64,000 nucleotides of DNA from Spongiibacter nanhainus (lineage in GTDB: Bacteria; Pseudomonadota; Gammaproteobacteria; Pseudomonadales; Spongiibacteraceae). The notes under the pieces were generated by a model. That model had not been told where the DNA came from. It did no database searches and worked only from the letters and a program-made list of their open reading frames with translations. Location: the NCBI RefSeq assembly GCF_016132545.1, contig NZ_CP066167.1, positions 1,515,001 through 1,579,000 of the forward strand, written 5' to 3'. Shown here one piece after another: positions 14,939 to 21,111 of the stretch (its first letter is position 1; every line of letters begins with the position of its first letter). The position numbers and the translations under genes are program-made.

Positions 14939-16060
14939 ATGCGCATTGGTATCCCCACAGAAGTAAAGTCACAGGAATATCGCGTTGCGGTGGTGCCGGA
15001 GGATGTGGCCACCCTTTGCCAGCAGTCCCACACGGTTTTGGTCCAGCGCGGCGCAGGGCAGGGCTCGGGCTTTGATGACGAAGCTTACCGCCGCGCTGGG
15101 GCTACAATCGTTGACTCTGCCCAGGCGCTGTTTGCCGAGGCTGAGCTAATCGTTAAGGTCAAAGAGCCCCAGCCGGGGGAATACGCGTTGCTGCGGCCTG
15201 AGCACACCTTATTCTGTTATTTGCACCTGGCGCCGGCTGTCGAGTTAACCGATGCCCTGGTCGCCAGCGGCGCCAGCTGCGTCGCCTACGAGACCATAAC
15301 TGATTCTGCCGGTCGCCTGCCGCTACTAATGCCAATGAGCGAAATAGCCGGTCGCCTGGCCACCCAGGCCGGGGCCCACTGCCTAGAGAAGGCCCAGGGC
15401 GGGGCCGGGGTGCTACTGGGTTCGGTGGCCGGCCTGCCACCGGCAAAGGTGCTGATTTTTGGCGGCGGCACCGTGGGGACCAACGCCGCCGAGGTAGCCG
15501 TGGGGATGGGCGCGTCAGTTACGGTGATCGACCCCAATGACAAGCGCCGCCAACAACTGCAAACGGAATTTGCCGGTGCGGATTTCACGGTTCTCGATGC
15601 CCCCGACCTGGCCAGCATGCTGCCAGAGACCGACCTGGTGATTGGCGCGGTGCTGCTGCCCGGCGCGGAATCGCCCAAAGTATTGCAACGCTCCCACCTC
15701 GGCGACTTAAAGCCCGGCTCAGTGCTGGTGGATGTGGCGGTGGATCAGGGCGGCTGTTTTGCCACCACAAGGCCGACCACTCACGGTGACCCCACCTTTG
15801 TGGAAGAGGGCATTGTGCACTACTGCGTTGCTAATATTCCCAGTGCGGTGGCCCGCACCGCCAGTCAAGCGTTGAGCAGTGCATCCCGGCCTTACTTGCA
15901 ACAACTGGCCAGTGGCCCCCTGGCCGAGGTATTGGCCAAGGATGCCCATTTGCTTGCCGGCTTGAATGTTGCGGCGGGCAAGGTGTGTTTTGATGCCGTC
16001 GCTTCCGCCCAGGGCCGAGACTATACACCGCCTGAGGACGTTCTCGCTTTGATCGCTTAA
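14939..16060 (+). CDS. ald: Alanine dehydrogenase
   Basis: This 373-residue enzyme interconverts L-alanine and pyruvate plus ammonia with NAD. It has the family's starting block 'MRIGIPTEVKSQEYRVAVVP' with substrate Arg15, catalytic Lys75 in 'VKVKEP' and His96 in 'YLHLAP'. The NAD-binding 'VLIFGGGTVGTNAAEVAVGMGA' lies at about 170-190. The length and numbering match characterised alanine dehydrogenases and rule out the longer transhydrogenase alpha subunit, a homologue encoded at the right end of this window. It lies in a run of same-strand genes with short gaps (67 and 37 bases). Confidence 0.93.
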   Translation: MRIGIPTEVKSQEYRVAVVPEDVATLCQQSHTVLVQRGAGQGSGFDDEAYRRAGATIVDSAQALFAEAELIVKVKEPQPGEYALLRPEHTLFCYLHLAPAVELTDALVASGASCVAYETITDSAGRLPLLMPMSEIAGRLATQAGAHCLEKAQGGAGVLLGSVAGLPPAKVLIFGGGTVGTNAAEVAVGMGASVTVIDPNDKRRQQLQTEFAGADFTVLDAPDLASMLPETDLVIGAVLLPGAESPKVLQRSHLGDLKPGSVLVDVAVDQGGCFATTRPTTHGDPTFVEEGIVHYCVANIPSAVARTASQALSSASRPYLQQLASGPLAEVLAKDAHLLAGLNVAAGKVCFDAVASAQGRDYTPPEDVLALIA

Positions 16061-16097
16061 ACTGGCGCTCGCAGATAATAAGCGGACGAACAACAGC

Positions 16098-16844
16098 ATG
16101 GAAATCCACCGGGTCAAAACCCGCCTTGTAAACAGCTACGTGATTGCCTACGCCGAGCGCATACTAGTGGTGGACGTTGCGGTAAAGTGCCACCGCCATG
16201 TGCTGGGCTATATCGAACAAGACCTGGGACGAGCCATTGACGACGTTGCCCTGGTTACCTGCACCCACGACGATCCGGATCATATGGGTGGGGTGTTGGC
16301 ACTGGCACAGCTGTGCGCTGCCGAGGTGGCGCTGCCCCTGGCCGCCGGGCGAGGGCACCGGAAGTTGTTTAACAACCCCACCGGGCCACTAAACCGCATT
16401 CGCACCAGTGCCAGGGAGTCACTGCGCCCCCGGGCCTGGAATATGTACATGAACCCGGCCCGGGACAGAGCCGCAGCCAAAGCGCCCCAGCTGGCGAAAG
16501 ACACCGCCAGCAGTTCAGAGCGGATTGAGCAGAGCACCAGCCACCGCCTCAAAGACGGCCATAGCCTGCCGGGTTTTGATGATTGGCAAGTGATCCACAC
16601 CCCCGGCCACACCTGGGATAGCTGTTGCTACTACCACCCCCAATCCAGGAGCCTGATATCCGGTGACACGTTGTTGGGTAGCGCCAAGATCAACCGCCTG
16701 GTCACCCCATCCATCTATTCCAGCCGGCGGCAAACCCTGCGCTCACTGGCAAAACTCGCGCAGCTAAAGATAAACACCGTCTACCCAGGGCACGGCAGCG
16801 TGATCTCGGGCAATGACCTGATTGGCCGCCACAACTTGCCTTGA
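16098..16844 (+). CDS. Metallo-beta-lactamase superfamily hydrolase with variant HxDxDH motif
   Basis: This 248-residue protein has the metallo-beta-lactamase fold: 'VTCTHDDPDHMGG' (residues 54-65), 'HTPGHTWDSCCYY', 'SGDTLLGS' and 'YPGHGSV'. The first zinc motif reads H57-D58-D59-P60-D61-H62, so the second His of HxHxDH is replaced by Asp; the other ligands look present. Such variants occur in hydrolases with altered metal binding. A ~70-residue insertion rich in Arg, Ala and Ser (about 85-155) separates the first two motifs. Substrate unknown. It is the last gene before the integron-type cassette. Confidence 0.75.
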   Translation: MEIHRVKTRLVNSYVIAYAERILVVDVAVKCHRHVLGYIEQDLGRAIDDVALVTCTHDDPDHMGGVLALAQLCAAEVALPLAAGRGHRKLFNNPTGPLNRIRTSARESLRPRAWNMYMNPARDRAAAKAPQLAKDTASSSERIEQSTSHRLKDGHSLPGFDDWQVIHTPGHTWDSCCYYHPQSRSLISGDTLLGSAKINRLVTPSIYSSRRQTLRSLAKLAQLKINTVYPGHGSVISGNDLIGRHNLP

Positions 16845-17133
16845 TTTGGCGATTTTGACCTTCCTCCAGTCTTTCGGCGTTTTTCAGAAGCCGCTGGCTC
16901 CCTATCTCGGCTTGAGTGGGGCTAACTGATTGATTTTTATATAGGCAGGTATATGATCAGGAGAAACGGAATTTAAAAAACATATAGGGAACGTGTCTTG
17001 ATATCCTCCAAAGCCTTTGTGCCTCTTCTTCGCCAACCTGCTGAAAGAACCGGGTTTTTTGGGCTTTCCTTCGTTTTTGTTTCCGTGATAGAGCGCCAAA
17101 GTGATATATGGCCCTAGTCTTCATAATAAAACT
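16845..17133. other. A+T-rich spacer upstream of the cassette
   Basis: This stretch holds no gene I can support. It becomes markedly A+T-rich from about 16920 and ends with CATAATAAAACT directly before the GTTAGGC core. That A-rich approach to the core resembles the crossover end of integron attI sites, but no integrase gene is present on either strand. Short minus-strand reading frames here encode basic low-complexity peptides with no family similarity. Confidence 0.4.
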
Positions 17134-17153
17134 GTTAGGCACCTTGTGCTGAT

Positions 17154-19175
17154 ATGACCGCCTATTTCTCTTCCTCAATTAAGACTTTCTGCCATATTAC
17201 GCCCGACGAAGTCTCTGCCCGGTTGCATGCGAAATATGCAGCTGACGGATTCTCATCACAATATACGACTCAAACCGAAGCCTGGAACAACACTATTCCG
17301 AGGCTGCAGGAAGAATTCCGTGCACTCATGCGCGAACATCCAACTGCGTCCAGTTGGAGGGTTCTGCTCGAGTATCCGCTGTATCGATTGCGGCGACGCA
17401 TTGATGTTTTGGTGCTTACTCCGGCTGCCTTGGTCGTTGTTGAGCTGAAGGTTGGAGAGTCAGAGTTTCGTTCAACCGATCGCCGCCAAGTTGAAGAATA
17501 TGCCCTCGATCTGAGGGATTTTCATGCGTCTAGTTCAGGCGTCAGTATCGTCCCACTGCTTTGGTGCACGGGCGCAAGCACTACGACATACGCACCCACC
17601 ACAAAACCTGGAGACGTTGCAGAAGTCGGCCTGGTCGGGAAAACCGGAGTGGCAAGAATTATCGGGCAGATCGGTTTGTCACAACCTGTGATTTCATACG
17701 AAATCAATGAATGGGAAACCGGCCAATATCGGCCCGTCCCAACAGTCGTTGATGCGGCAACTACCCTTTTCGCAGGTCATGGGGTACGCGAAATCGCACA
17801 AGCTGATGCGACGAATCTGGATGCATCGGCAAATCGCGTTGTGGAGATTATTAAAGAAACACAGAGAAATCGTTCGCGCTCATTAATCTTCCTAGCGGGT
17901 GTTCCTGGTTCAGGGAAAACATTGGCAGGATTGCAGGTAGTGCATAACGCCGTAGAGTCGGGGGTAGAGGACCGAGGCGATATTGTTTACTTGTCTGGGA
18001 ATACGCCATTGGTCGTCGTCCTACGTGAAGCACTGGCTCGTGACGAAGCTGGCCGAAGAAAGGCTCGTGGAGAAAGAGGCCAGCTTGCCGAGGCAAGGAA
18101 TTCGGTTCGTACTCGCATTCAACACATCATCGATTTTCTGCGGGAATACCTGACTAGCGATGATGGCTCCGCGCCACATGAACATGTCATCGTCTTCGAC
18201 GAGGCGCAAAGAGCGTGGGACGAAGACTACGGAAAGAAAAAATTCGGGCGTCCATCTTCGGAGCCGCGCTTGCTTCTCGAGATCATGGGGCGGCACCCAG
18301 ATTGGTGTTCCATCGTGGCGCTTGTTGGTGGGGGGCAGGAGATCAACGCGGGAGAAAACGGGATTGCGGAATGGGGAAAAGCTCTGCGAGAACTCGGCGC
18401 AGACGTACTTAAGAGTTGGTCAGTTTACGGCCCGCCGAATTTTGTTGAGGGATCAGAGGCAACGGCAAAGCTTGGGGCCGGTAGCCTTTCAGGTGTTGGA
18501 AGCGTCAAAGTTGATCGAGATCTCGAACTTACTGTTCCGCTGAGAAGTTTTCGGTCGCCTTTGCTCAGTCAATGGGTCGCTGCTGTACTGGATGGAGATG
18601 CCCCAAGTGCAGCAGGGCTCGCTGAACACCTTGGCGATTACCCAATTTTAGTAGTTCGATCGTTGGACTGTGCCCGCAACTGGCTGAAAGACGCTGCACG
18701 TGGTGAGAGAAGATTTGGATTGGTTGCCAGCTCGGGCGCGAGGCGTTTACGGGCTGACGGGCTTGGTGTCACGCTCAATGCAACCGATGGAAGCGCAATC
18801 GCTCAGTGGTATCTGAATGGCCGAGGAGATGTTCGTTCTTCTTTTGCGCTCGAAGTCCCGGCAAACGAATACACAACACAGGGGCTTGAACTAGATTTTG
18901 TTGGGTTGTGTTGGGGAGGAGATCTCGTATGGGATGGAGATTGCTGGCAGTACCGGCAGTTTCGTGGAAATGACTGGGCTAGCGTTAATGGCGACCGCCA
19001 ACGATTCGTCGCCAACTCATATCGGGTGCTAATGACCAGGGGGCGCGAAGGGCTGGTGATTTGGGTGCCCGAAGGATCCGAGGAGGACCCTACACGTGAG
19101 CCCGAAAACTTGGACTGGACAGCTCGCTTTTTAGTCAGTTGCGGGGCTAAGCAATGCTTAGAAGGAGATGCCTAA
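17154..19175 (+). CDS. Predicted PD-(D/E)xK nuclease fused to DUF2075/Schlafen-type helicase
   Basis: This 673-residue protein has an N-terminal segment with a PD-(D/E)xK-like pattern: 'RRIDVLVL' with D84, then 'VVVELKV' with E97 and K99, as in NERD-type nucleases. The C-terminal two-thirds is a DUF2075 superfamily 1-like ATPase: Walker A GVPGSGKT (249-256), Walker B VIVFDEAQ (345-352), a 'VGGGQEINAGENG' sensor motif (391-403), 'QGLELD' (576-581) and 'NSYRVLMTRGREG' (621-633). The combination suggests a nucleic-acid cleaving translocase, perhaps for defence or repair; this is inference. It is the only gene of an integron-type cassette and has no good Shine-Dalgarno site. No promoter is evident within the cassette, so expression may depend on upstream DNA. 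Confidence 0.8.
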   Translation: MTAYFSSSIKTFCHITPDEVSARLHAKYAADGFSSQYTTQTEAWNNTIPRLQEEFRALMREHPTASSWRVLLEYPLYRLRRRIDVLVLTPAALVVVELKVGESEFRSTDRRQVEEYALDLRDFHASSSGVSIVPLLWCTGASTTTYAPTTKPGDVAEVGLVGKTGVARIIGQIGLSQPVISYEINEWETGQYRPVPTVVDAATTLFAGHGVREIAQADATNLDASANRVVEIIKETQRNRSRSLIFLAGVPGSGKTLAGLQVVHNAVESGVEDRGDIVYLSGNTPLVVVLREALARDEAGRRKARGERGQLAEARNSVRTRIQHIIDFLREYLTSDDGSAPHEHVIVFDEAQRAWDEDYGKKKFGRPSSEPRLLLEIMGRHPDWCSIVALVGGGQEINAGENGIAEWGKALRELGADVLKSWSVYGPPNFVEGSEATAKLGAGSLSGVGSVKVDRDLELTVPLRSFRSPLLSQWVAAVLDGDAPSAAGLAEHLGDYPILVVRSLDCARNWLKDAARGERRFGLVASSGARRLRADGLGVTLNATDGSAIAQWYLNGRGDVRSSFALEVPANEYTTQGLELDFVGLCWGGDLVWDGDCWQYRQFRGNDWASVNGDRQRFVANSYRVLMTRGREGLVIWVPEGSEEDPTREPENLDWTARFLVSCGAKQCLEGDA

Positions 19176-19266
19176 CAATGCGCTGCAGCGGACGTTTGAC
19201 CCGTCACCTACTTTGCTGTCGCAAAGCAGGCGTCGCCTTAAGCGCCGCTGAGCTTAGGCGTTGAGC
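19170..19266 (+). other. attC recombination site (97 bp)
   Basis: R'' box GCCTAAC (19170-19176) and R' box GTTGAGC (19260-19266) fit RYYYAAC and GTTRRRY. Inside them, GCTGCAGCGG (19182-19191) pairs with CCGCTGAGC (19245-19253), leaving G19185 unpaired. That is the extrahelical base that defines strand choice in folded attC sites. The centre forms a second hairpin, CTTTGC-TGTC-GCAAAG (19211-19226). The size, box order and extrahelical base together make chance similarity unlikely. Confidence 0.82.
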
Positions 19267-19518
19267 TTGTAGAACTTCTCTGCCGTGAGTGTCGGCTTTG
19301 TGTCTTTCTGAGACAGTTACCCCGACCGTAGCAACTGCTTTTGCACAAATAGTGAGAGCCTCCTGCCTTAGCCTCCTTGCTTATTTCCCTCCCTGGAGTG
19401 CCATTATTCTTGTTGTTTTGCGTAAAAATCCCTCAAACAGATTACGCAATCTCCTTGTGGCGAGGGGTGGCGGTTTTTAGACTGCCAGTCTCTACAATAA
19501 TTATTCGGGTGCTGGAGA
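19267..19518. promoter_or_regulatory. Control region upstream of the steroid cluster
   Basis: No gene is seen here. The region contains two symmetrical elements. One is a TTGCGTAA (19418-19425) ... TTACGCAA (19442-19449) inverted repeat with 16 bases between the arms. The other is a 13-bp palindrome AGACTG-C-CAGTCT (19479-19491), directly followed by a -10-like TACAAT (19493-19498), 21 bases before the fadD3 start. Either could be an operator for the two Lrp/AsnC regulators encoded downstream. Confidence 0.45.
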
Positions 19519-21111
19519 ATGCTGAAAGACGATGTGGGCCAGGGCGCTCTGCCCCTCACTGCGCCGCGGTTGGCGGGCTGGGCTGCCCAGCAATACGGTG
19601 ACAAACTCGCCATCCGCGATGGCGATCAGGATCTGAGCTATAGCGACCTCAACCAGGCCAGGCGTCAGGCCGGTAAGGCCTTTATGGCGCTGGGTGTGGA
19701 AAAGGGCGATAGAGTGGCCATTTGGGCGCCCAACAGTGCCCAGTGGATCGTTGCGGCACTGGGGGCGCAATCTCTGGGCGCTATTGTGGTAACCCTGAAT
19801 ACCCGGCTATCCGGTGCCGAAGCGGCCGATATTCTCAGCCGGGCCGGGGTGTCTTACCTGTTAACCGTGGCCCAGTTGGAGCAGGGCGCTCCCTGTGGGT
19901 TGTTGGCAGAGGAATCCCTGCCGGCGCTGAAAGAGACGGTATTGCTGGAGGGCGCGGAAGACGGTGCCCGCAGCTGGCAGGATTTTCTGGCACTGGCTGA
20001 GGGGGCCGACTCTGCCGCATTCACCGCCGCCGAGCGGGCAGTACTGCCCAGCGACAGCGCCGATATGCTGTTTACCTCCGGCACTACCGGCAAGGCCAAA
20101 GGGGTGCTGTGCAGCCATGAGCAGAACTTCCGGGTATTTGTTACCTGGAGCGATACCGTCGGTCTGCGCAGTGACGACAACTATCTCATCATTAATCCCT
20201 TCTTCCACTCCTTTGGCTACAAAGCCGGCTGGCTGGCGGCGCTGATTAAAGGCGCGGCGATCTTCCCCATGGCGCGCTTTGATCGCAGTGCGTTAATGGC
20301 TGCCATAGAACAACACCGCATTACCATGCTGCCGGGGGCGCCGTCCCTCTACGATATGATTCTCAATGCCGAGGACCGGGACCAGTACGACCTGTCCAGC
20401 CTGCGCCTGGGGGTTACTGGGGCGGCATCGGTGCCGGTGCAGTTGGTCAAGGATATGTCCGAGGTGTTGGGTTTTGAGACTGTGGTCACCGCCTACGGTC
20501 TGACCGAGTCCACCGGGGTGGTCACTATCTGCCGTCCCGACGATGATCCCGAGACCATTGCCAATACCAGTGGCCGCGTCATCGACGGTGTGGAGCTGCG
20601 CTGCGTTGACCCCGAGAGTGGCAAAGAACGGCCCCGGGGCGAGGCCGGCGAAGTGTGGGTGCGGGGTTACAACGTGATGCAGGGCTACTTCGATATGCCC
20701 GACGCCACCGCAGAGGCCATTACCGATGATGGTTGGCTGCGCACCGGTGATATTGGCGTCATGGATGAGCGCGGCTACCTGCGTATTACCGATCGCCTTA
20801 AAGACATGTACATCATGAACGGCGAGAACGTCTATCCCGCCGAGGTGGAGCAGTGCCTGCGGCAGTTGCCGGGGGTAGCTCAGGTGGCCGTGGTGGGCAT
20901 TCCCCATAAGGCCCAGGGCGAAGTCGGCGCAGCCTTTGTGGTCCCGGCGTCCGGTGCCGAGCTGGATGAAGACGCCGTTAAACAGCACGCCAGCAACAAT
21001 CTGGCCCGCTACAAAGTGCCCAAGCACGTATTTCTGGTGGACAGCCTGCCTCTCAATGCCTCCGGCAAAGTGTTGAAAACGGTCCTGCGCGAGCAGGCCG
21101 CTCAGGCCTGA
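19519..21111 (+). CDS. fadD3: Acyl-CoA synthetase, FadD3-like (HIP:CoA ligase)
   Basis: This 530-residue AMP-forming ligase has the P-loop LFTSGTTGKAKGV (184-196), 'AYGLTEST', 'GWLRTGDIGVMDERGYLRITDR', and the C-terminal catalytic Lys in 'LNASGKVLK'. In characterised steroid degraders FadD3 activates the C/D-ring propionate HIP with CoA and ATP, opening the second half of steroid breakdown. The assignment to FadD3 rather than a generic fatty-acid ligase rests on the fifteen-gene context: ipdABC, echA20, fadA6, ipdE and ipdF follow on the same strand. It is the first gene of the cluster and has the symmetrical control elements upstream. The start at 19519 follows TGCTGGAGA. Confidence 0.8.
   Translation: MLKDDVGQGALPLTAPRLAGWAAQQYGDKLAIRDGDQDLSYSDLNQARRQAGKAFMALGVEKGDRVAIWAPNSAQWIVAALGAQSLGAIVVTLNTRLSGAEAADILSRAGVSYLLTVAQLEQGAPCGLLAEESLPALKETVLLEGAEDGARSWQDFLALAEGADSAAFTAAERAVLPSDSADMLFTSGTTGKAKGVLCSHEQNFRVFVTWSDTVGLRSDDNYLIINPFFHSFGYKAGWLAALIKGAAIFPMARFDRSALMAAIEQHRITMLPGAPSLYDMILNAEDRDQYDLSSLRLGVTGAASVPVQLVKDMSEVLGFETVVTAYGLTESTGVVTICRPDDDPETIANTSGRVIDGVELRCVDPESGKERPRGEAGEVWVRGYNVMQGYFDMPDATAEAITDDGWLRTGDIGVMDERGYLRITDRLKDMYIMNGENVYPAEVEQCLRQLPGVAQVAVVGIPHKAQGEVGAAFVVPASGAELDEDAVKQHASNNLARYKVPKHVFLVDSLPLNASGKVLKTVLREQAAQA

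Follow-up and report, generated by a model that had tools for sequence, protein, structure and literature searches.

An integron-type gene cassette standing alone in a chromosome raises the question of how it came to its site and what served it there. We addressed this question for a stretch of 64,000 nucleotides (the window), which corresponds to G000:C1:1515001-1579000 of a complete 4.08-Mb chromosome. Positions given without further label are those of the window.

A solitary gene cassette in the window

The segment at 17135..19260 on the forward strand (2126 bp) is a genuine solitary integron-type gene cassette, with G|TT at both ends and an attC model match. Its left recombination core, GTTAGGC (17134..17140, +; crossover G|TT), is the exact reverse complement of the first attC box, GCCTAAC, at 19170-19176. 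The attC site (19170..19266, +), supported by its fold and by a covariance model, comprises R'' (19170-19176), L'' (19182-19191), L' (19245-19253) and R' (19260-19266), the last reading GTTGAGC. The inner arms GCT-G-CAGCGG (19182-19191) and CCGCTGAGC (19245-19253) form a 9-bp helix from which the single G at 19185 is extrahelical; TTAGGC at 19254-19259 is able to pair with R'' in an alternative fold. The only open reading frame (17154-19175) starts 20 bases past the G of the left core and 13 bases past the end of the core, and its TAA lies within the first attC box. A sequence-only reading of the locus had pointed out the complementary cores, the GTTGAGC end, the single extrahelical G and the position of the reading frame, and the letters bear out each of these.

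The bottom strand of 19170-19266 folded better than shuffled sequences (z -2.58; 3/200), with a z of -1.98 for the top strand. We then used a covariance model of 16 attC sites, all from other genomes, with the window site left out. The L''/L' helix of these sites had 94.5% of cells paired and all 8 of its 8 pairs showed changes on both sides, and the covariation score of the alignment was reached by 0 of 500 shuffles. On the 64-kb window the sole match at E ≤ 10 was exactly 19170-19266 on the forward strand (20.8 bits, E 0.013); the long central loop keeps the score modest. The attC-model check proposed by that reading thus gave this site and nothing else, and its report that no integrase or second attC lay nearby also held: neither a second attC by the covariance model nor an intI gene was found in the 64-kb window. 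The single integron integrase gene of the genome is located at 3996193-3997134 of the chromosome (TIGR02249, 391 bits), about 2.46 Mb from the window in coordinates. The locus accordingly has what is expected of an integron gene cassette (a reading frame and one attC, with G|TT crossovers in matching cores), of an attC site (paired L''/L' with an extrahelical base, and a structure-model match) and of a CALIN or single-attC element (an attC in a neighbourhood without intI); it is not a complete integron with intI in cis.

The cassette gene (17154..19175, +) encodes 673 amino acids with a nuclease-like N-terminus and a Schlafen group 3 helicase. The product matched PF09848 (E 1.4e-66) and, over its full length, the PADLOC family PDC-S41 (717 bits), which makes it a candidate defence protein; residues 63-121 gave a weak Cas4-like match. 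The cargo is thus predicted to be a PDC-S41 helicase-nuclease and may serve in phage defence. A homologue was present in 1 of 17 congeners (38% identity), which speaks against the fixed chromosomal synteny that would have undone the cassette reading, and a related-locus search of public genome contigs found no close relatives of the gene.

The left flank is a probable copy of an integron Pc and attI region

The cassette is preceded by an element of about 255 bp, here called L (16880..17133, +), a probable copy of an integron Pc and attI region with no adjoining intI. L was delimited by an identity profile and by model R1, which was built from 30 L sequences, the window copy among them, and which matched G000:C1:1531880-1532136 (window 16880-17136). 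In the alignment of the 30 copies, pairwise identity was about 0.35 to the left of window ~16875-16880, rose there to 0.53 and stayed high up to the cassette junction, which is exactly the right edge of L. The best-conserved part is the attI-proximal core CGCCAAAGTGATATATGGCCCTAGTCTTCATAATAAAACT (17095..17133, +, left edge approximate), in which mean pairwise identity was 0.77-0.88 and at which the genus copies end. A sequence ending ...CATAATAAAACT|GTT is present to the left of the junction in most congeners.

L contains a probable cassette promoter Pc, TTGATT - 16 - TATGAT, at 16930..16957 (+), located by a consensus scan and by column conservation. The scan returned one site, where 0.6 was expected in shuffles. 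TTGA and TATGAT occupy columns that are invariant or ≥90% conserved in the 30 copies; the last 40 bases are likewise among the most conserved columns. TTGA...TATGAT is a plausible promoter, which would read into the first cassette. A leader-RNA role for L was also considered and rejected, as no RNA structure in L was well supported (9 weak pairs); an Rfam scan of the locus gave no match.

In five congeners (G001, G004, G007, G015 and G016) L is found directly upstream of an intI gene and points away from it, in the position of Pc and attI. The five L-linked IntI proteins form one clade, 81-98% identical to G001 IntI, and a partial L adjoins a sixth, broken, related intI in G010. Judged by this association, L is the putative attI/Pc region of one integrase lineage. 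The IntI of G000 is about 44% identical to this clade, and no L match was found beside the G000 intI gene itself. Since the resident IntI belongs to another clade, the window copy may or may not still be active; the cassette was placed in G000 either by an L-type IntI since lost or by the resident divergent IntI. No intI match was obtained in G002, G008 and G017, which nevertheless carry L platforms; activity there must therefore be past or imported.

Probable cassette turnover at L copies without an integrase

With a 107-bp query, about 50 L copies (E < 1e-4) were detected in 14 of the 18 genomes of the genus, eight of them in G007. Thirty copies were examined. No clear intI was found within 2 kb upstream at 27 of them, one of which (L107) has just a 28-residue intI match (E 0.007). 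The first reading frame started 2-78 bp past the junction at all 30. By the covariance model, whose 16 sites were drawn from these loci and others, an attC lay downstream at 26 of the 30 copies, and 60 of 60 matches were on the L strand; among the four copies without attC, L104 reaches a contig end and L107 has only a distant match. A simple attC heuristic, since superseded by the model, had given 34 sense and 2 antisense matches in the 30 regions (background 0.12 per 2.5 kb). Of 29 first-cassette products at L sites, at least six matched defence families at E ≤ 1e-10, namely PDC-S41, AbiTii, TIR/Pycsar, HNH effector, AbiU and PDC-S21; by this count, first cassettes often encode candidate phage defences.

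Comparison of species provided evidence that such sites have been used. At one orthologous integrase-less platform the downstream sequences of G008 and G004 are 97% identical, and a 684-bp cassette is extra in G008 exactly at AAAACT|GTT. At a second integrase-less platform, unrelated cassettes are enclosed by flanks of 96-97% identity, which reach the junction on one side and resume at GTTGAGG on the other. Cassette content thus differs between species exactly at the junction, which, at the level of genome comparison, shows that integrase-less L copies have been used. Cassettes also recur between sites: one is present at two G008 platforms (97.7% identical), and the G001 array that includes intI has a cassette matching one at a G007 platform without integrase (87%).

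The eight G007 copies, seven integrase-less and one intI-linked, form one clade in a tree of L sequences. This suggests spread of L within that genome; gene conversion would look alike. Inverted repeats TGTYGATTCACCCATAA.TTGACC enclose four G007 platforms, and a fifth has the left one alone; two of the platforms are flanked by perfect 4-bp repeats (GGCT and CGTG). The whole G007 genome contains only ten TGTYGATTCACCCATAA.TTGACC sites at ≤2 mismatches, of which platforms account for at least six. Two such sites likewise enclose the intI-bearing G001 integron, where no matching flanking repeat was seen. These repeats resemble the ends of IS21- or Tn402/Tn7-type elements. At loci L079, L081, L083, L084, L085, L099 and L160, the platforms inside the repeats were also seen to have related repeats internally. 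G000 has no such site at ≤2 mismatches, and the window platform is not an inverted-repeat-bounded unit; repeat-bounded spread is therefore suggested for its relatives at most.

One AMP-binding gene was also observed to have L elements no more than about 6 kb away, at differing positions, in seven genomes: that of the window (14939-21111), G001, G003, G004, G008, G016 and G017. The complete integron of G001 adjoins a dehydrogenase gene neighbouring that AMP-binding gene.

Across the order, L was detected by model R1 in 31 of the 294 genomes searched; these belong to eight families and 10 of 118 genera, and the copy number per genome reached at least six. In the other families L is likewise followed by a cassette gene and often by attC, and seldom adjoins intI. 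Only one other genome of a class-wide sample matched L, and that weakly.

The right flank recurs at the ends of integron arrays

The sequence to the right of the cassette, R (19260..19401, +; 142 bp, beginning GTTGAGC), was recognized by homology to other loci of G000 as an array-end sequence and the right half of the platform. Homologues lie at 1037107-1037254 and 3991176-3991325 of the chromosome, each directly after an attC, and a truncated copy lies at 2352977-2353041 after half an attC. The copy at 3991176-3991325 is the distal end of the intI-bearing array (L008), so that the same R element closes this array and the window cassette. Six attC sites were identified in that array upstream of intI by the covariance model, one of which is similar to the window attC in both arms (about 85-86%).

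By homology, then, the two window flanks are, as far as can be judged, the halves of an integron attachment platform, L on the left and R on the right, which recurs across the genus and, for L, across the order. The claim of a solitary chromosomal cassette therefore stands as to its attC and its exact boundaries and is incomplete as to the gap, since the insertion was not into random sequence. The uninterrupted site predicted for relatives, AAAACT-GTTGAGC, agrees with the L and R halves; no empty platform with L joined to R without a cassette was found in 294 genomes, among which the search gave two 2-mismatch matches (G159 and G286).

Several further observations were made at related loci. 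Beside a fumarase-like gene of G000 lies another cassette site without integrase, which again ends in R (L012 1490-2110; L024 6251-6331 and 9322-9403). The truncated R copy (L032 ~1490-1565) appears to be a decayed platform near a transposase-like gene, with half of attC and half of R deleted. The intI array (L008 14736-19600, G000:C1 ~3991236-3996100) probably holds, judged by eye, a ParD/ParE-like toxin-antitoxin cassette near its distal end. In G009 (L027 380-460; L100) the R core runs straight into the final ~40 bases of L, and a new cassette follows; this is apparently a recombinant platform. In arrays L102, L088 and L100 the last attC is followed by GTTGAGGCTGTA and then in some by a transposase-like reading frame (MPKFKPYDYNQ..., apparently truncated in two), which suggests insertion of an IS near array ends.

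Origin of the locus

We propose, with a probability of about 0.8, that the locus is an integron platform minus its integrase, consisting of a copied attI/Pc region (L), one captured cassette and the array-end sequence R. The copied attI with its Pc would have captured the cassette, leaving R on the far side; an IntI encoded elsewhere would move cassettes in and out at AAAACT|GTT in trans; and the promoter inside L would transcribe the captured gene. The L copies would have spread as units and would not be remnants of intI deletion. The interspecies comparison supports probable capture at attI-type sites and turnover. The wider idea of a distributed integron, in which one integrase serves many scattered attI-Pc pads, each expressing its own first cassette, and in which the pads spread as integrase-less, inverted-repeat-bounded mobile units, is tentative, and we would put it at somewhat below even odds.

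The evidence was also weighed against three other accounts. Each L copy might be what remains of a whole integron that reached its locus and later lost intI, in which case entire integrons would have been dispersed. CALINs have been proposed to arise by loss of intI (PMC8618304; PMC9024848), several L-bearing genomes have no intI, and the intI-bearing G001 integron also appears to be bounded by inverted repeats. Yet 27 of the 30 L copies retain no clear intI remnant within 2 kb, homology ends at the same left edge, and G007 holds seven closely related integrase-less copies alongside one linked to intI, so that we consider degradation unlikely. Insertion by IntI into an ordinary secondary site of the attG type, a documented source of stray cassettes (cited in PMC12444791; PMC8618304), is very improbable here. 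A 255-bp element that recurs in the genus and the order forms the left flank, and a 142-bp repeat forms the right; such long shared flanks are unexpected because attG sites are short, degenerate sequences. Scarcely credible, in our view, is the account of L as a non-integron regulatory repeat (a promoter or leader RNA) merely upstream of horizontally acquired genes: L does have a conserved promoter-like hexamer pair, but its right edge coincides exactly with the IntI crossover, cassettes with attC follow it, it takes the place of attI beside intI genes, and no RNA structure in it is well supported. The integrase-less platform remains the preferred reading.

Comparison with known systems

Integrons typically have one attI near the integrase (PMC9024848). 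On dispersed, orphan or multiple attI we found nothing relevant in the open-access literature, and an earlier description is possible. CALINs and stray cassettes have been attributed to intI loss, off-target insertion or rearrangement (PMC8618304); an integrase-less attI-Pc family would be a fourth origin for stray arrays. Scattered attI-Pc copies would also free cassette expression from the limit set by a single promoter. If the distributed integron were true, many genes would occupy the first, strongly expressed position simultaneously, and many CALINs of the order would be working platforms and not wrecks. IntegronFinder 2.0 by default takes two attC sites as the minimum for a CALIN and detects attI of class 1 only (PMC9024848). 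With a single attC and an attI outside class 1, the window locus would therefore be missed by these defaults, and L offers a concrete example of a non-class-1 attI family, a kind of site not sought by annotation tools.

The locus resembles a chromosomal integron in its Pc-like promoter, attI-like junction and attC cassette, and L is the probable attI/Pc region of such integrons in congeners; it differs in having no adjoining integrase and in that the attI/Pc segment occurs in many copies per genome. With CALINs it shares attC cassettes without a nearby intI, whereas here a conserved attI-Pc element heads the array. As at attG secondary sites, the cassette is integrated outside the main integron, but attG sites are dispersed ordinary sequences and L is long, conserved and furnished with a promoter-like pair. 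Inverted repeats enclose several platforms of G007 and G001, as in integron mobilization units and MITE-flanked integrons; the window platform, in contrast, stands without such repeats, with L on its left and R on its right.
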